NCBI GenBank assembly: GCA_913051705.1 | Contig: CAJXCW010000018.1 | Coordinates: 1-36,253 of the forward strand | Reading direction: 5' to 3' | Length of the DNA: 36,253 nt | DNA from: an uncultured bacterium | GTDB lineage: Bacteria; JAAXHH01 | In this document: positions 7,142-35,954 of the stretch, piece after piece | How positions within the stretch are numbered: the stretch's first letter is position 1 | How the letters are laid out: the number at the start of each line of letters is the position of its first letter | Notes under the pieces: model-generated | Databases searched by the model: none | Seen by the model: only the letters and a program-made list of their open reading frames with translations | What the model was told of the DNA's origin: nothing | Made by a program: the position numbers and the translations under genes

Positions 7142-7197
7142 GATCCTCTATTTGTGTAATCCTATTCGAGCTCATTTTCAAAAGGACCATGCCGTTC

Positions 7198-7956
7198 ATG
7201 AGTGTAGGGCTCTTTATTCCCTGTTATATCGATCAATTCTATCCTGATGTAGGCATTGCCACCCTGGAATTGCTGGAACAATTCGGCGTTAAGGTAGATT
7301 TTCCGGAAGGGCAGACTTGTTGCGGTCAGCCGATGACCAATGCAGGTTGTGTGGATGATGCCCGGCCGCTGGCGCATCGATTCTTACATCTGTTCAAAGC
7401 CTATGATTATGTCGTAGCGCCATCCGCCAGTTGCGTAGCCATGGTACGCCATCATTACGAATCGCATCTGGGGAACCATCCTGACTACGAATCCTTGAAA
7501 GTTAAGACCTATGAACTATGCGAATTCCTGGTGGAGGTCCTCAAAGTGGAAACACTGGACCTCTCGTTTCCATATCGCGTGGGGCTGCATGAGAGTTGTC
7601 ACGGCCTGAGAGAGCTGCGTATGGGCCAATCATCCGAGCTGGTCGGGACGGCGTTCAGCAAGTCTCGGCAGTTGCTTGAGCTGATCGATGGACTCGAAAT
7701 AACCACCTTGAAACGTCCGGATGAATGTTGCGGATTCGGTGGGACGTTTGCCGTAAATCAGGAAGCCGTTTCCTGTATGATGGGCCTGGACCGCGTGGCC
7801 GATCATGAACAGGCCGAAACGCAGGTGCTTACCGCAACGGATATGTCCTGCCTGATGCACCTGGACGGTTTGATCCGGCGACAGAAAAAACCCATACACG
7901 TTATGCACATCGCCCAGATTCTGGCCGGCAGAAAACCGGCGGAGGTGACCGCATGA
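7198..7956 (+). CDS. lutA: LutA/LldE-family L-lactate utilisation Fe-S protein
   Basis: LutA acts with LutB and LutC in oxidation of L-lactate to pyruvate. The protein has two Cys-rich CCG domains: GLFIPCYIDQFYP with TCCGQPMTNAG in the first half, and GLHESCHGLRELRMG with DECCGFGGTFAVNQE in the second. These bind Fe-S clusters or link to the membrane redox chain. About 252 residues, near family length. The frame can also begin at the ATG at 7189. I prefer 7198 because the AAAGGA site at 7181-7186 is only 2 bases from the first ATG and because homologues start M-x-V-x-L-F-I-P-C. It overlaps lutB by 4 bases (ATGA), indicating translational coupling. Confidence 0.9.
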   Translation: MSVGLFIPCYIDQFYPDVGIATLELLEQFGVKVDFPEGQTCCGQPMTNAGCVDDARPLAHRFLHLFKAYDYVVAPSASCVAMVRHHYESHLGNHPDYESLKVKTYELCEFLVEVLKVETLDLSFPYRVGLHESCHGLRELRMGQSSELVGTAFSKSRQLLELIDGLEITTLKRPDECCGFGGTFAVNQEAVSCMMGLDRVADHEQAETQVLTATDMSCLMHLDGLIRRQKKPIHVMHIAQILAGRKPAEVTA

Positions 7957-9338
7957 CAACAAAATCCCATAACCACGCCGCAAAAGCGAAGCAGTTTATC
8001 AGCAACCCTGAGAAAGCACACTGGCATGATGAGGCGTTATGGTTTATCCGGGAAAAGCGGGATAAACAGGTCCACAGTCTTCCGGAATGGGAGCGGCTCC
8101 GCGAACTCGCCTCTCAGATCAAAGCACATACCATATCGAAACTCGGTTCGTATTTAGTCGCCTTTGAAGAACAAGCGACAGCCCTCGGCGCCCAGGTACA
8201 TTGGGCGAAAGACGGGGAGGAACATAATCGGATTGTCCATGGTATACTCAAAAACCATGGTGTACAACGTGTGGTAAAAAGCAAGTCCATGCTCACGGAA
8301 GAATGTCACCTGAATCCGTATCTGGAAAAGCAGGGCATCGAGGTGGTGGACACCGATCTTGGAGAACGGATCGTTCAGCTGCGTCATGAGCCGCCCAGCC
8401 ACATCGTGTTGCCGGCAATCCATATTAAGAAAGAGGAAGTCGGCGAACTGTTTCACGAACATCTGGGGACCGATCAGGGCGCAACGGACCCGGATTATCT
8501 GACTGAGGCCGCCCGGCATCATCTGCGGGAGAAATTCATGGAGGCGGATGCCGGGATCACCGGTGTTAACTTTGCTATTGCAGAAACCGGAGGGATTGTG
8601 ATATGCACCAATGAAGGCAATGCCGACCTCGGCGTCTCCCTGCCGAAGCTGCATATCGCTTGTATGGGATTGGAAAAACTGATCCCCCGTATGGAAGACC
8701 TCAGTATATTCATCCGCCTTCTGGCCCGTTCCGCTACCGGTCAACCCATCACCACGTACACCTCCCACTTTCATGGCCCGATAGCCGACGGTGAACTGCA
8801 CATCGTCTTATTGGATAACGGCCGGAGTGCCCTGCGACTGAATAGGGCGTTCAGTGAGGCGTTGAACTGTATCCGATGCGGGGCCTGTATGAACACCTGT
8901 CCGGTATACCGGCGTAGCGGTGGGCACAGCTACTCAGCGACCGTGCCGGGACCGATCGGCTCCGTTTTGAATCCGGTTCAGGATGCGGGCACTTACCACA
9001 GCCTGCCTTTTGCCTGCTCTCTGTGCGGCTCATGTACGGATGTCTGTCCGGTTAAGATCCCTCTGCATCATCAACTGTTGACCCTGCGAAATCATATCAG
9101 GCTTAAGGGTCATCTTGCCTGGGGTAAGAAAATGACCATGACCATGGCGGCCGGAGTACTGGGTTCTCCCTTTCTGTTTCGTTTTTTCGGCGGACTGGCA
9201 AGACGCGTCCTGAAGACCTTTCCGGGCCTGATGAATAACCGATTCAACACCTGGGGAAAACAGCGTGATTTACCCACACCTCCTGTTACCTCATTTGCAT
9301 CATGGTATAAGAAGAATCGTAGAGGAGATGGTGCATGA
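7953..9338 (+). CDS. lutB: LutB/LldF-family lactate utilisation iron-sulfur protein
   Basis: The 461-residue protein has the LUD domain (about residues 60-290, including ITGVNFAIAETGGIVICTNE). Two ferredoxin-like [4Fe-4S] motifs follow: CIRCGACMNTCP (Cys306, 309, 312, 316) and CSLCGSCTDVCP (Cys355, 358, 361, 365). The C-terminal region is the usual DUF3390-like tail. It transfers electrons during L-lactate oxidation in the LutABC complex. Length matches the family. Start and stop overlap its neighbours by 4 bases each (ATGA), so the three genes form a tightly coupled operon. No frameshift or missing ligand is seen, in contrast to other loci in this window. Confidence 0.95.
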   Translation: MTTKSHNHAAKAKQFISNPEKAHWHDEALWFIREKRDKQVHSLPEWERLRELASQIKAHTISKLGSYLVAFEEQATALGAQVHWAKDGEEHNRIVHGILKNHGVQRVVKSKSMLTEECHLNPYLEKQGIEVVDTDLGERIVQLRHEPPSHIVLPAIHIKKEEVGELFHEHLGTDQGATDPDYLTEAARHHLREKFMEADAGITGVNFAIAETGGIVICTNEGNADLGVSLPKLHIACMGLEKLIPRMEDLSIFIRLLARSATGQPITTYTSHFHGPIADGELHIVLLDNGRSALRLNRAFSEALNCIRCGACMNTCPVYRRSGGHSYSATVPGPIGSVLNPVQDAGTYHSLPFACSLCGSCTDVCPVKIPLHHQLLTLRNHIRLKGHLAWGKKMTMTMAAGVLGSPFLFRFFGGLARRVLKTFPGLMNNRFNTWGKQRDLPTPPVTSFASWYKKNRRGDGA

Positions 9339-9925
9339 GCAGTCGAGACGATATCCTGGTCCAACTGCGCCATAGCACACCGGAAGAGGAAGCGTATCCC
9401 GATTTGAATCAGTCGTGGACCACCTATCCTGATCAGATCGTGAAGTTTCAGGAATCGGTGGCCGGTGTGGGCGGTCATGCGGTGCGGTTAGATAGCGGGG
9501 CAGACTTGACAGAGACGATTACCCGGATGGAAGTATACCAGGCTACCAAGAAAGTGGCCTCATGCAGCACCCATACACGTATAGAAAACGTATCCCTCGA
9601 TAATATCTCTGATCCGCATGCACTGGAAGACCTCGACCTGTTCATCGCAGATGGCTCTATAGGCGTCGCTGAAAATGGGGCGGTCTGGCTTACCGATGAG
9701 AAGATCCCACATCGGGTCGCGCTGTTTATCACTCAGCATCTGATTCTGACAGTGGAAAGCCGCTGCATTGTTCATAATATGCACGAAGCATATCAGCAGA
9801 TCGCCACGGTCCGGCCGGGTTTCGGCATCTTCATCTCAGGGCCATCCAAAACCGCTGATATAGAGCAATCTCTCGTCACCGGCGCCCACGGCGCCCGCTC
9901 ACTCACGGTGTTTATTCTGGACTGA
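9335..9925 (+). CDS. lutC: LutC/LldG-family lactate utilisation protein
   Basis: The 196-residue LUD-domain protein is the third part of the lactate oxidation complex. Recognisable elements are the N-terminal MSSRDDILVQLR, the central DLFIADGSIGVAENGAVWLTD, and the C-terminal FISGPSKTADIEQSLVTGAH, the best conserved signature of LutC and related LUD proteins (G-P-S-x-T-A-D-I-E). Length is usual. The start overlaps the lutB stop by 4 bases. No terminator is obvious in the 57 bases before the next gene, so read-through into the pseudouridine synthase is possible. Confidence 0.93.
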   Translation: MSSRDDILVQLRHSTPEEEAYPDLNQSWTTYPDQIVKFQESVAGVGGHAVRLDSGADLTETITRMEVYQATKKVASCSTHTRIENVSLDNISDPHALEDLDLFIADGSIGVAENGAVWLTDEKIPHRVALFITQHLILTVESRCIVHNMHEAYQQIATVRPGFGIFISGPSKTADIEQSLVTGAHGARSLTVFILD

Positions 9926-10806: not shown

Positions 10807-11937
10807 TTATCTATGCCCGGTTTTCAACAGATAATTACGAAAGGCGGCCAGACCTATGTCCATGTCTTTACGGCCGAACCCAATACGGAATCTATCCTGG
10901 GGTGCCTCTAAAAGTTCGGATCGATAGACCGTAGGCGGCAACAGTAGAACACCGGTTTCTTCGACTAATATTTCACAGAATGTATTTGTATCCATCGGGC
11001 CAGTGTACCGTGGAAAGCCGACACAACCGCCATCCGATTCCGTCCATCTGAAAGACGCCGGGAAATCGTTAAAAAAAGCGGTCAACTTTCTCAAGTTTTC
11101 ACTGACAAGCGCCCGGTTACGCGTCAGAATTTTGTCCCGCGCTTTCAGGGCAATAATCGCCAGACGTTCACTCGGTGCTGAGTTACAGATGGATAGATAA
11201 TGCTTATATCGTTCCATACGCTGCAGGACATCTCTGTCTTTGGTCATGACCCAACCGATACGTAGCCCCGGTAAACCATAGGCTTTGGACATGACATTGA
11301 GCGATAAGGCCCGCTCATACACATCCGCAGCCTGTGGCAGTCTGATGCCGGCATCCCGTTCGAGCAGTCTATACACCTCGTCGCTGAACAGATAAATCCC
11401 TCTTTCGCGACAAAGTTCGACCAGGTCGTCAAAGCGATCACGCGGGATGATGGTCCCGGTCGGGTTGTTCGGGAAGTTGATCGAGATCAGCTTTGTATTC
11501 GGGCGAAGCGCGTGTCTGATCTGATCTATATTCAGAGACCAGTTATCATCCGGATTGAGCGCGACGCCGGATACCGCGCAAATACTCAAGGGTAATGTTT
11601 CAGCAGCCTGATAATTCGGTACGATTATGATAGCGTGGTCTTCCGGCGCCAATAGAACACGCATGGCGATATAAACCCCTTCTTCCGCCCCTACAAAACA
11701 CAGAATATGTTCCGGTTTTGCCGAGTCGTATGTTTGCGCTATTTCCATTCGGAGTTCAGGCAAACCAAGGGTTTCGGTATACCCGAGCCGGAGGGTTTCG
11801 AACAGATGGCGATCTTCCGGGGTGGCCATGGCCAGGAGATCCGACACGGACATGCTCTCCATATCGGAAGCCGTCATGTGGTATCTTGCCGTAAATTCCC
11901 ACTTCGAAAAATACCTCTCTAATGCAAAATCGCGCAT
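10807..11937 (-). CDS. class I/II PLP-dependent aminotransferase
   Basis: The 376-residue fold-type I enzyme shows INFPNNPTG (PLP and substrate-binding Asn), SDEVY (Asp186, pyridine nitrogen) and NVMSKAYGLPGLRIGW with Lys218 as the Schiff-base lysine. It resembles aminotransferases annotated as capreomycidine-synthase-like, a loose family, so the substrate is open. Its ATG is 3 bases beyond the stop of the Lrp/AsnC gene on the same strand, so the regulator and enzyme form one transcript. Lrp-family regulators often control adjacent amino-acid genes, and the amino donor is likely the ligand sensed. The 158 bases between its 3' end and the convergent pseudouridine synthase gene hold no clear terminator. 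Confidence 0.9.
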   Translation of the reverse strand: MRDFALERYFSKWEFTARYHMTASDMESMSVSDLLAMATPEDRHLFETLRLGYTETLGLPELRMEIAQTYDSAKPEHILCFVGAEEGVYIAMRVLLAPEDHAIIIVPNYQAAETLPLSICAVSGVALNPDDNWSLNIDQIRHALRPNTKLISINFPNNPTGTIIPRDRFDDLVELCRERGIYLFSDEVYRLLERDAGIRLPQAADVYERALSLNVMSKAYGLPGLRIGWVMTKDRDVLQRMERYKHYLSICNSAPSERLAIIALKARDKILTRNRALVSENLRKLTAFFNDFPASFRWTESDGGCVGFPRYTGPMDTNTFCEILVEETGVLLLPPTVYRSELLEAPQDRFRIGFGRKDMDIGLAAFRNYLLKTGHR

Positions 11938-11940
11938 ATT

Positions 11941-12390
11941 TCATATCCCCAGATGCTTCTGCCTGTGGTCCAGCACCATGTTGGACAGGGTGCGAACATG
12001 GGCCGGTAGAGTGCTGATTTTATTATACAGTACGTCCCGTAAATGAGCAAGGTCATGCGTCCAGATGCGGATAATCACATCGTACTCGCCCGTTAAATTC
12101 ACCACTTCGACCACCTCATCCATCGCCATTAAATCTTCCACAAATGTATCGAAATCATGCTGCTGATCCACTTCAACCAGAATAGCGCAGTGAATGCCGT
12201 ATCCCAGTACCTGCGGATTAATGACCGCCCGGTAGCCTGTAATAACGCCCGCTTCTTCCATACGCAGAATGCGGTCTCTCACACGCGTATGGCCCACTTT
12301 GAGTTGACGGGCAATTTCAACGTGAGAGGCACGCCCGTTTTTTTGAAGGAGTTCGAGTATCTTTTTGTCCAGGTCATCTAATTGAAGCAT
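11941..12390 (-). CDS. Lrp/AsnC-family transcriptional regulator
   Basis: The 149-residue protein has an N-terminal winged helix-turn-helix (LDDLDKKILELLQKNGRASH, then VEIARQLKVGHTRVRDRILR) and a C-terminal RAM/AsnC ligand domain (VEVVNLTGEYDVIIRIWTHD). The frame is open from 12438, but ATG 12390 is preferred because AGGATT lies 7 bases upstream and homologues begin near L-D-x-x-D. It leads a two-gene unit with the class I aminotransferase and is divergent from a class III aminotransferase. A perfect 24-bp palindrome in the divergent gap is the obvious candidate operator, so autoregulation together with control of both enzymes is likely. Confidence 0.93.
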   Translation of the reverse strand: MLQLDDLDKKILELLQKNGRASHVEIARQLKVGHTRVRDRILRMEEAGVITGYRAVINPQVLGYGIHCAILVEVDQQHDFDTFVEDLMAMDEVVEVVNLTGEYDVIIRIWTHDLAHLRDVLYNKISTLPAHVRTLSNMVLDHRQKHLGI

Positions 12391-12444
12391 GGTTTTAATC
12401 CTATTGGCATATTGATTATAAAAAAGTTTGCGTTTCACGATAGA

Positions 12445-12468
12445 TATTCAATAAATATTTATTGAATA
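12445..12468. promoter_or_regulatory. perfect 24-bp palindrome, candidate Lrp/AsnC operator
   Basis: TATTCAATAAAT is followed directly by its exact reverse complement. The site is in the AT-rich divergent gap, 55 bases upstream of the regulator start and 75 bases upstream of the class III aminotransferase start. A weaker A/T palindrome follows near 12505-12519. Symmetry and position are observed; the identity of the bound protein is inferred. Confidence 0.6.
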
Positions 12469-12542
12469 ATGCAATATAGTACAATATATTAGTACGTTTG
12501 GAAGTATTTATTAAAAATATTTGTTTCGAGATGGAGGTTGAT

Positions 12543-13856
12543 ATGGAGTTAAAATCTATTGGAATCAAAGCGGAAGCATGGATTGAACGGGATGAGAATC
12601 TGAATTCAACATCGTATACTAGAGAGTATCCATTGGTGGTGGACCGGGCTGAAGGCAGCCTTTTATGGGATGTTGACGGCAAGCGATATATCGATTTCAT
12701 GGGCGGTATCGGGGTGATGAATGTAGGACATCGACATCCCCGCGTCGTAGAAGCCGTCAAGAATCAACTGGATCGTTTCTGGCATATCTGCCTGGGAGAC
12801 TTTTATTATCCCCAAGCCGTAGAACTGTCGGAACGATTAGATGAGATTGCGCCGATGCATGATGGCACTCGTCTGTATTACGGCAACTCGGGTACAGAGG
12901 CGATAGAAGCCGCTATAAAACTGGCCATGGTCCATACCGGTCGAAGCAAATTTATCGGTTTTCTGGGCGGGTTTCACGGAAGGACGCTGGGCGCCCTTTC
13001 GTTTACGGCCAGTAAGGCGGTGCAATCAGAGAAATATCCTCAGGCATTGGATGTATTCCATGTGCCCTATCCTGATCCATATCGTCCCAGGATTATCAAT
13101 AACGATGTGATCGGCTATATCGAGAAGGATCTCCTGGAGGTCAAAGTTGCCCCGCATGATGTCGCGGCTATTCTCGTTGAAGCGATACAGGGGGAGGGCG
13201 GTTATATTATTCCGCCGGCAGATTTCCTACCACAACTGCGTGATCTGTGCGATCGATACGGTATGCTCTTGATTGTAGATGAAATCCAGTCCGGAGTCGG
13301 TCGTACTGGTAAATGGTGGGCCATCGAACACACCGGCGTGGAGCCCGATATTCTCGCATTCGCCAAAGGTATCGCCAGCGGATTGCCCTTGAGCGGCATC
13401 ATCACCCGTGAGTCTGTGATGACCTGGAAGCCTGGCTCACAAGGCAGCACATTCGGCGGTAATCCGGTGGCGATAGCGGCGGCCCTGGCCACGCTTGAGG
13501 TCATCAAAGATGAAAATCTGCTGGATCGAGCGCATGAATCGGGGGAATGGTTGAAAGCAGCACTACGTAAATTGCAGGACCAGTATCCGTATATAGGTGA
13601 TGTACGCGGCTGTGGTATGATGATCGGCATTGAAATCGTGAGCGACCCGATAAAAAAAACACCGGACGCTGTCCTTCGCGATGAACTGATTCGAGCGGCG
13701 TTCGACCAGGGTCTGCTCACGCTGCCCTGTGGTGAAAGCACCCTGCGTTTCATTGCTCCTCTAAATACACCTGAGGCTTTACTTGAAGAGGGGATGTCCA
13801 TGTTCGAACAGGCCATGAAGAACGTGGTAGATACAGGTCAGTCTGCGGCATTGTAA
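12543..13856 (+). CDS. class III aminotransferase (4-aminobutyrate/ornithine aminotransferase-like)
   Basis: The 437-residue PLP enzyme has all class III signatures: YYGNSGTEAIEAAIKLA (phosphate binding), GGFHGRTLGALSFT, LVEAIQGEGGYIIPP, the Asp246 motif LLIVDEIQSGVGRTGKWWA and the catalytic Lys275 in ILAFAKGIASGLPLS. It is related to GabT and other omega-aminotransferases; the true amino donor could be GABA, ornithine, beta-alanine or another omega-amine. Reading from TTG 12498 is possible, but ATG 12543 has a GGAGG site 5 bases upstream and is chosen. It is divergent from the Lrp/AsnC regulator and probably controlled by it through the palindrome between them. The 35-base gap to rlmG allows cotranscription. 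Confidence 0.92.
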   Translation: MELKSIGIKAEAWIERDENLNSTSYTREYPLVVDRAEGSLLWDVDGKRYIDFMGGIGVMNVGHRHPRVVEAVKNQLDRFWHICLGDFYYPQAVELSERLDEIAPMHDGTRLYYGNSGTEAIEAAIKLAMVHTGRSKFIGFLGGFHGRTLGALSFTASKAVQSEKYPQALDVFHVPYPDPYRPRIINNDVIGYIEKDLLEVKVAPHDVAAILVEAIQGEGGYIIPPADFLPQLRDLCDRYGMLLIVDEIQSGVGRTGKWWAIEHTGVEPDILAFAKGIASGLPLSGIITRESVMTWKPGSQGSTFGGNPVAIAAALATLEVIKDENLLDRAHESGEWLKAALRKLQDQYPYIGDVRGCGMMIGIEIVSDPIKKTPDAVLRDELIRAAFDQGLLTLPCGESTLRFIAPLNTPEALLEEGMSMFEQAMKNVVDTGQSAAL

Positions 13857-22390: not shown

Positions 22391-23045
22391 TCAAAAGCCG
22401 TGATTCTTCAGCCGGACCAACTCATCAATCGTGAGGTCCTTGAATCCCCGATCACGCATTCTGCGGACAAACGAGGCGGAGACGCCGTGATCCTTCATAC
22501 GACGGAGTTCACGAATAGAAAGATCCGTAAAGCCGAGGTCGGTCATGTCCTCGATATAATCCGGCGTCACGCCGTGGTTCCGTATGCGAATCAAGAGCCA
22601 TGAAGAATTGCTGCTCATCAGTCGGTGGATCAAAGCCTCGCCGGGCGAGTTTATCCGTAAAATCTTCACCTGGCATGAAGGTAAAATGACCTGGTCCCCG
22701 TCCCTCCCTGAACCAACCCTCACAGAGCATACTCACCATGTCATCAATCGACAAATCATTAAATCCACGATTTCTGGCACGTTCGATAAAGCTGATGGTC
22801 ACCCCGTGAATACGCATCGAAATCAGCTCGTCGGGACTCACGCGATCGTAGCCCAGCGCTTCAAGTTCTTCGATAAACTCAGGGCTGACACCATGGATAC
22901 GCATCGAGATTAATTGTTCTGATGAGATACGCCGATTACTGTAGGCCCTCATCTCATCGATATAGTCGAGACTAACACCGTGAATACGCATGGGGTGGCA
23001 GACCTGTACATACGCGGGAAACGCCCTATAGATCGATCGGGACAC
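22391..23045 (-). pseudogene. 29-residue helical-repeat protein, 5'-truncated and frameshifted
   Basis: Two overlapping frames encode one set of repeats, each exactly 29 residues, with the pattern [LI]-x-x-[RK]-x-H-G-V-[ST]-x-x-[FY]-[IV], ending L-S-x-[DE]-[ED]-L. Examples are ISMRIHGVSPEFIEELEALG and RRMKDHGVSASFVRRMRDRG. Three complete repeats come first (from about 22990), then an irregular stretch with REGRGPGHFTFMPGEDF. A frame change at about 22595-22600 follows, then two more repeats and a partial one ending LKNHGF. Such repeats occur C-terminal to M56/BlaR1-like peptidases and in repeat-only proteins. Here no upstream domain exists: the reading frame begins inside the 3' end of the metallo-beta-lactamase gene with an implausible GTG. 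It is probably a remnant of a larger gene. Confidence 0.7.
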
Positions 23046-34798: not shown

Positions 34799-35954
34799 AT
34801 GGCCTCCATTGGCCCAGGGGTTATGAACTCAAAACATCACCGGATTTCAATGACGCCCACCCAGACACTCACTGAACGCCTGCAAACAGTGTACGAAATC
34901 GGGGCGGACATGGCAACCATCCATAATTTACCTGCGCTGGTTGAACTGAAGTAGATGAGATTATTCAGGCTGGTAAACGGGCAACGGTCCTGACCAACCA
35001 TCTTCTGGCCTTCAGCCGTCATCAGGTCATCCAACCCAGTATTGTTGACCTCAATCGGGTTATCGTCGATAATGCCAGGATGCTACGCCGCCTTATCGGA
35101 GAAGACATCCATTTAATCACGACGCTGGATCCGGGTCTGAAACCTATGAAAATTGATCTTGGTCAGATTCATCAGATTATCATGAACCTGGCCATCAATG
35201 CCCGTGACGCCATGCCCCATGGCGGCCAACTGAGAATAGAAACCACAAACTTCCAATTGTCTCCCACCAACGCGGCCGGGCTGGAGACTATGCGGCCGGG
35301 TGACTATGTCCGGCTGGCCATCAGCGACACGGGAGTGGGCATGACCGAAGGCGAGGTCAATCAGGCCTTCGAGCCTTTTTTCACCACCAAGGACGTGGGC
35401 CAGGGCAGCGGTCTGGGTCTGAGCATGATTTATGGCTTTGCCAAGCAATCGGGCGGCCATGCCCGCATCTACTCCGAGGTCGGGATAGGCACCACGGTCA
35501 AAATCTACCTGCCCCGCTCAATAAGTGATGCGCTTGCCAAACCCGATCCCGACGCCAGCGTCATTACCGATATTGCGTCGCGGGGTGAAACCGTCATGGT
35601 GGTGGAGGATGATGACGATGTCCGTATCGTGGCGATCAGCTTTCTCGAAAACCTGGGCTACCTAAGTGCTTGCAGCCGCCACCGCCGCCGAGGTCCTTGC
35701 ACAAATCAGCCAAAAGGCGGAATTCAACCTGCTTGTCGCAGACGTTAATCTGCCCGGCGGGATGGTCGGCCGGGAGTTGGCGGAGCGGGCCTGTGAATTG
35801 TTGCCCGCTCTCAAGGTCCTCTTCATTTCAGGCTATACCCAGCACGGACATGCACCATGGACAACTGGACGAAGGCGTCCACCTGTTGGCGAAACCGTTC
35901 GGGCAAGCTAATTTCGCAAGAAAAATTTGCGAAACCCTAGATAACGAATCTTAA
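34799..35954 (+). pseudogene. hybrid sensor histidine kinase remnant with at least three frame breaks
   Basis: An N-terminal piece of 51 codons (34799-34954), ending LQTVYEIGADMATIHNL, looks like the start of a GAF domain and is cut at TAG. At about 34948 the reading moves to another frame that continues in a histidine kinase: EIIQAGKRATVLTNHLLAFS, the N box NLAINARDAMPHGG, the G1 box ISDTGVGM, FEPFFTTKDVGQGSGLGLSM and GTTVKIYLPR. The H box with the phosphorylated His and most sensor sequence are missing. The receiver domain that follows (VMVVEDDDDVR, Asp site LLVADVNLPGG, Lys site LLAKPF) is broken at about 35663 and again near 35850. No complete protein can be made. It is a decayed gene. 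Confidence 0.8.

Follow-up and report, generated by a model that had tools for sequence, protein, structure and literature searches.

A perfect 24-bp palindrome as candidate operator of a local Lrp/AsnC-type regulator between divergent aminotransferase genes

A perfect 24-bp palindrome was found in the only divergent gap of a three-gene module, in which a class I aminotransferase gene and the gene of an Lrp/AsnC-family regulator run leftward, and a class III aminotransferase gene runs rightward, from a shared intergenic region. The module lies in a 36,253-nucleotide stretch of DNA from an uncultured bacterium (hereafter, the window), and we consider it rather probable that the adjacent regulator, a local factor acting between two divergent promoters, uses the palindrome as its operator. 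An earlier reading made from the sequence alone had claimed the three genes with these orientations and families, as well as the perfect palindrome; the former were borne out by the reading frames and by Pfam and NCBIfam matches, and the latter by the self-complementarity of positions 12445-12468. The coordinates given in that sequence-only reading (12391-12542) correctly mark the boundaries of the gap, of which the palindrome itself occupies only the shorter stretch. The features considered here are the following:

10807..11937, minus strand: class I/II aminotransferase, 376 aa, starting 3 bp after the Lrp stop codon
11941..12390, minus strand: Lrp/AsnC-family regulator, 149 aa, with HTH and RAM ligand-binding domains (Pfam and PDB relatives)
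12391..12542, no strand: divergent intergenic gap, 152 bp, about 76% A+T
12415..12420, minus strand: TATAAT, a perfect -10-like hexamer of the leftward Lrp gene that lacks a good -35 (by eye; absent from the promoter scan output)
12445..12468, no strand: perfect 24-bp palindrome, proposed operator (arms 12445-12456 and 12457-12468)
12462..12490, plus strand: promoter-like pair for the class III gene (TTGAAT, 17 bp, TATATT), a consensus match only
12543..13856, plus strand: class III aminotransferase, 437 aa, PRK05769 group, ornithine/lysine omega-aminotransferase-like

The palindrome, TATTCAATAAATATTTATTGAATA, is its own reverse complement and the longest perfect one in the window, where the runner-up measures 16 bp; 20 bp was the upper limit in 400 kb drawn from 20 further contigs of this genome, whose 5.45 Mb contain a single exact copy of the 24-mer. 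The A+T content of the gap is unusually high for this genome, a value of at least 74% being found in only 7 of 15,880 overlapping 150-bp windows of a 400-kb same-genome sample. An A+T content of about 76% makes long palindromes likelier, and the symmetry could be a chance product of an A+T-rich promoter region, with back-to-back TTGAAT elements accounting for much of it: the TTGAAT of the right arm fits a -35, and the left arm bears its mirror image. However, a perfect 24-bp palindrome appeared in just 4 of 20,000 first-order Markov sequences having the gap's own nearest-neighbour composition, a figure that becomes one to two orders of magnitude weaker once the many gaps inspected are allowed for, and in none of 20,000 plain shuffles of the gap (maximum, 22 bp). 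Moreover, the mirrored minus-strand hexamer has no -10 at 16-18 bp, either by eye or in the promoter scan. The palindrome is real and exceeds what the local composition readily yields, and a chance origin seems unlikely.

The edges of the gap are set by the ATG of the Lrp gene at 12390 (minus strand) and that of the class III gene at 12543 (plus strand), each preceded, as judged by eye, by a Shine-Dalgarno-like sequence (AGGA 8 nt and GGAGG 5 nt upstream, respectively); the alternative, longer mechanical starts, GTG at 12438 and TTG at 12498, were not preferred. Four promoter-like pairs were found by a promoter scan of the region, against 1.4 expected, and in the plus-strand pair assigned to the class III gene the first hexamer, TTGAAT, falls inside the right arm of the palindrome. 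The idea of a self-contained, amino-acid-responsive switch, put forward previously, holds insofar as the palindrome is likely to be a regulatory site, this promoter-like pair beginning in its right arm; we infer the binding of the regulator to it, as well as the amino-acid signal, and the module would be self-contained only by presumption. The same inverted repeat might instead act as a terminating or attenuating hairpin in RNA transcribed across the gap, and it can form a 10-bp stem closed by a 4-nt loop (-7.2 kcal/mol, z -2.45), a stability equalled or surpassed by 9 of 200 shuffles. Nevertheless, the stem is mostly A-U, no T run follows it and a terminator scan found no terminator, and the palindrome, flanked by divergent genes, precedes both inferred start sites, all of which makes such a role very improbable.

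In the mechanism that we propose for the palindrome as operator, a dimer of the regulator, or part of a larger oligomer, would occupy the symmetric site. On the right, the palindrome would overlap the -35 proposed for the class III promoter, with its centre at about -40, and it would be located just upstream of the leftward promoter of the Lrp and class I genes, with its centre at about -48. The bound regulator could block the rightward promoter and could either block or assist the leftward one, the sign of these effects being presumed, and both enzymes together with the regulator's own gene would be controlled by an amino acid, the putative ligand of the RAM domain. The class III enzyme would most likely take the omega-amino group off a diamino acid, for example ornithine or lysine, and the class I enzyme would act on a related amino acid, both substrates being predicted ones.

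When up to one mismatch was allowed, the pattern TTCAAT-N8-ATTGAA was located at 27 places in the genome (its backwards control gave 1 place against these 27, but is built of stop-rich words, and the excess carries no inference); of 15 places examined, 12 were inside ORFs and 3 were intergenic, including the palindrome itself. The uniqueness of the 24-mer and the mostly intragenic location of its lookalikes fit a local regulator. No related operator set was found in the window's own genome by half-site and gapped-palindrome searches, and a regulon reading was dropped for this reason. Within the gap, four near-copies of the palindrome core matched at least 8 of 10 positions, two of them being the palindrome's own arms; four or more were also present in 392 of 3,000 random gaps, so that extra imperfect half-sites are no commoner than chance. 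A series of three half-site-like copies about 50 bp apart (12410, 12460 and 12509), reminiscent of the three sites of the archaeal regulator BarR, was likewise discarded because of its chance-level frequency.

Scans of the gap for Lrp-type consensus sequences gave weak results, with nothing convincing. The palindrome core, ATAAATATTTAT, resembles the FL11 consensus ATAAA-ATT-TTTAT, but has a 2-bp spacer in place of the 3-bp one; the best match to the E. coli Lrp consensus (13/15) is outside the palindrome, to the right of it; no exact match to TTG-N9-CAA occurs in 12380-12560, and one TTG-N7-CAA match straddles the right arm. The patterns scanned for included TGAAA-N3-TTTCA as well as the Lrp consensus of E. 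coli. Lrp-type sites are described, in the accounts compared here, as having an odd centre and often being grouped, as exemplified by the 13-bp FL11 site and the 15-bp BarR sites (PMC10201364, PMC2995911, PMC8707732). Compared with these odd, clustered sites, an even-length, single palindrome counts against the operator reading, and as an operator it would have a form without counterpart among the Lrp-type sites in the compared literature.

Alternatively, the palindrome could be the site of another protein, either an HTH repressor or a nucleoid protein, with Lrp binding elsewhere in the A+T-rich gap, perhaps at scattered degenerate sites. This would agree with the departure of its even-length perfect symmetry from the documented 13/15-bp Lrp form, with the extreme A+T content of the gap, which suits indirect-readout binding, and with the location of the best E. 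coli Lrp-consensus matches to the right of the palindrome. However, no second regulator gene is adjacent, and the single genomic copy of the site fits a local and not a global factor; we regard the involvement of another protein as possible but doubtful, and retain the adjacent regulator as the preferred occupant of the palindrome.

This regulator has an intact N-terminal HTH and C-terminal RAM domain (PF13412, PF13404 and PF01037, all above cut-offs), and its nearest solved chain is 2cg4, titled AsnC. None of the named Lrp equivalogs of NCBIfam (AsnC, Lrp, LrpA and LysM) was reached, the best score being that of AsnC PRK11179, with 101 bits against a cut-off of 227. Across 384 genomes, its best relative is 36% identical, and at E<=1e-22 it was detected in 2 of the 384 genomes across the domain, namely its own and one at 36% identity; in 16 genomes of the phylum, no relatives were found at E<=1e-20 besides those in its own genome. 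A RAM-domain match was present in only 3 of these 16 phylum genomes, and full-length Lrp proteins solely in the genome of the window. The other full-length Lrp gene of this genome (L215, contig C37) is situated, as seen by eye, just before a transporter-like frame and divergent from a threonine-dehydratase-like frame, and no long palindrome was found near it, a further point against the operator reading.

Among known systems, the closest in design is BarR of the Sulfolobales, an Lrp-type regulator encoded divergently from an aminotransferase gene, which has sites in the shared gap and regulates its own gene and that of the enzyme (PMC10201364). The Lrp gene of the window is also divergent from an aminotransferase gene. 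However, BarR is archaeal, responds to beta-alanine and uses several 15-bp semipalindromic sites, the gap having been seen wrapped around an octamer (PMC10201364), whereas the window has a bacterial host, one 24-bp perfect palindrome and another aminotransferase gene following that of the regulator; an array of evenly spaced 15-bp TTG-N9-CAA sites like that of BarR is absent from the gap in a scan for exact matches. Local Lrp regulators encoded divergently from their targets are well documented, the architecture having been demonstrated by experiment for BarR and PA2577, and include AsnC, BkdR, MdeR, PutR and KynR, and also PA2577, which controls the divergent PA2576 and whose gap contains A and T tracts and a pseudopalindrome (PMC8707732). 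All of them share their divergent local design with the window; their targets differ, and no orthology of the regulators is claimed. The switch of the window would belong to this divergent local Lrp kind and would not be a BarR. Its kind is ordinary; what is unusual is how its parts are combined.

The class III enzyme scores 566.4 bits against NF004426/PRK05769 (NCBIfam), above the curated cut-off of 552. It falls under the GABA aminotransferase cut-off (TIGR00700, 383.6 vs 506.65) and below those of the other GABA models among the 25 matches listed, as well as below those of the class III fold racemases (leucine/methionine, 326.2 vs 800; alanine/serine family, 323.1 vs 639). Its nearest solved chain, a distant one (357 bits), is PH1423 of Pyrococcus horikoshii (7vno), whose PDB title reads hypothetical 4-aminobutyrate aminotransferase and which we take to be an ornithine delta-aminotransferase, in which Thr92 and Asp93 presumably matter. 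Asp86 of the window enzyme aligns with Asp93 of PH1423 (positions counted by hand). An Asp at this position is common to the closest full homologue (L003, from Anaerolineae, 65%) and to a Deinococcus homologue, and is missing in three other, plasmid-encoded class III enzymes that carry the annotation of a GABA or an aspartate-family aminotransferase. In a published screen, no D-amino acid product was seen for PH1423 (PMC6047364).

Regarding the neighbours of these homologues, the L003 gene adjoins a 2-oxoadipate dioxygenase/decarboxylase family gene, and the Deinococcus one adjoins an L-glutamate gamma-semialdehyde dehydrogenase gene, with a KamA-type radical SAM protein encoded near; a dihydrodipicolinate-synthase-family gene is a recurrent neighbour, being present at 11 other Chloroflexota loci among the best 80 of 372. 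The window enzyme passes the family cut-off of the PRK05769 group and has PH1423 as its nearest solved chain, with which it shares the Asp, although it is bacterial and only distantly related. It looks more like the ornithine/lysine omega-aminotransferases than like the GABA ones, and, because of its kinship with PH1423, the shared Asp and the neighbour genes of its homologues, ornithine or lysine is our best guess for its substrate. The assertion that the module matches no named pathway has to be qualified for this enzyme, which fits PRK05769 and has ornithine-type features, and stands for the class I enzyme, which reaches no equivalog.

The class I gene is probably co-transcribed with that of the regulator, as suggested by the 3-bp gap and the common strand. 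The nearest solved chains of its product are 3op7 and 8fft, and no cut-off of the NCBIfam equivalogs was reached, the top scores corresponding to PRK07324 (257.7 vs 476), GntC (229.8 vs 415) and VioD (197.5 vs 390.9). Among the 15 matches listed from a plasmid collection, the closest relatives are encoded on replicons of Rhizobium, Sinorhizobium, Shinella and Streptomyces (59-63%). A YheO-like PAS/HTH gene is found immediately upstream of the close homologue in all five loci inspected (L171-L175; 5 of 1,191 matching records), co-oriented with it in four of them and inverted in that of Rhizobium, and an ornithine-cyclodeaminase-family gene comes after the homologue in both Streptomyces loci. 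Both types of neighbour are present at one of four class I loci from other genomes (41-46% identity), and an ornithine-cyclodeaminase-family gene is near distant homologues (31-34%) in 14 of 16 own-phylum loci (L114-L129), one of the 16 being in the window's own genome. This kind of enzyme usually has other neighbours, and in the window it follows an Lrp instead.

Rightward of the class III gene, the next gene encodes an RlmG-like rRNA methyltransferase (below cut-off); therefore, the module does not obviously extend further in that direction. Class III homologues were detected in all 16 phylum genomes at E<=1e-60, with at most 50% identity outside the window's own genome, and in 36 of 384 genomes, own included, at E<=1e-105. 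A species-wide contig scan gave 372 candidate loci, the best 80 of which, Chloroflexota by their titles, show 50-67% identity in the best segment, the 67% match being a partial gene and the best full one reaching 65%. The class I enzyme was detected at E<=1e-70 in 5 of 384 genomes, own included, and in plasmid-collection records with up to 63% identity. An Lrp gene was found in the flanks of none of 140 non-window class III loci (tblastn, E<1e-60) and none of 9 non-window class I loci (E<1e-70), the flanks searched extending 1.5 kb at genome loci and as far as 5-8 kb at the others, with some loci stopping at contig ends. A profile built from three Lrps (the window's regulator, L180 and L215, the last two chosen as Lrp genes) and run over 195 loci matched the window's own loci, L180, L215 and, weakly, L213 and L214, which had been chosen as RAM-only proteins. 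Among the loci searched there was no second instance of the Lrp and aminotransferase arrangement, so that the operator reading lacks the backing of an orthologous locus, which counts against it, and no account of this gene trio appeared among the papers listed by literature searches.

The window contig may be foreign to the genome, that is, a contaminant. The genome is listed as 5.74% contaminated, and for one acyl-CoA dehydrogenase of the window the identity to proteins in the rest of the phylum does not exceed 39%. The tetranucleotide correlation of the first half of the window with 20 other contigs is 0.63-0.77, the means of these contigs among themselves being 0.64-0.74, and the second half correlates less with them (0.44-0.71). 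Elsewhere in the window, three adjacent plus-strand genes at 7189-9925 (CCG domain; LUD + 4Fe-4S; LUD domain) resemble a LutABC-type lactate utilisation operon. Two overlapping minus-strand frames at 22391-23045 share, by eye, the repeated motif HGV...FIE/YIE...M, as if one repeat protein had been broken by a frameshift or an assembly error. At 35080-35954, the plus strand carries what look, by eye, like the end of a histidine kinase and a stretch of receiver domain; their frames differ and overlap, and a frameshift may have divided a single hybrid kinase.

The nearest relatives of the class III enzyme are from Anaerolineae, those of the class I enzyme from rhizobia and Streptomyces. A more far-reaching scenario, in which one Lrp captured two aminotransferases of separate origin and both amino groups of one diamino acid would be removed under a single even-length operator, strikes us as quite unlikely. 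Should the palindrome indeed serve the adjacent regulator as operator, it would provide a clean Lrp target with a single site, in a bacterium about which little is known, and the ligand of the switch would reveal the amino acid handled by the module. Nothing known is overturned by this module, which suggests that enzymes governed by other regulators elsewhere can become partners of local Lrp ones.
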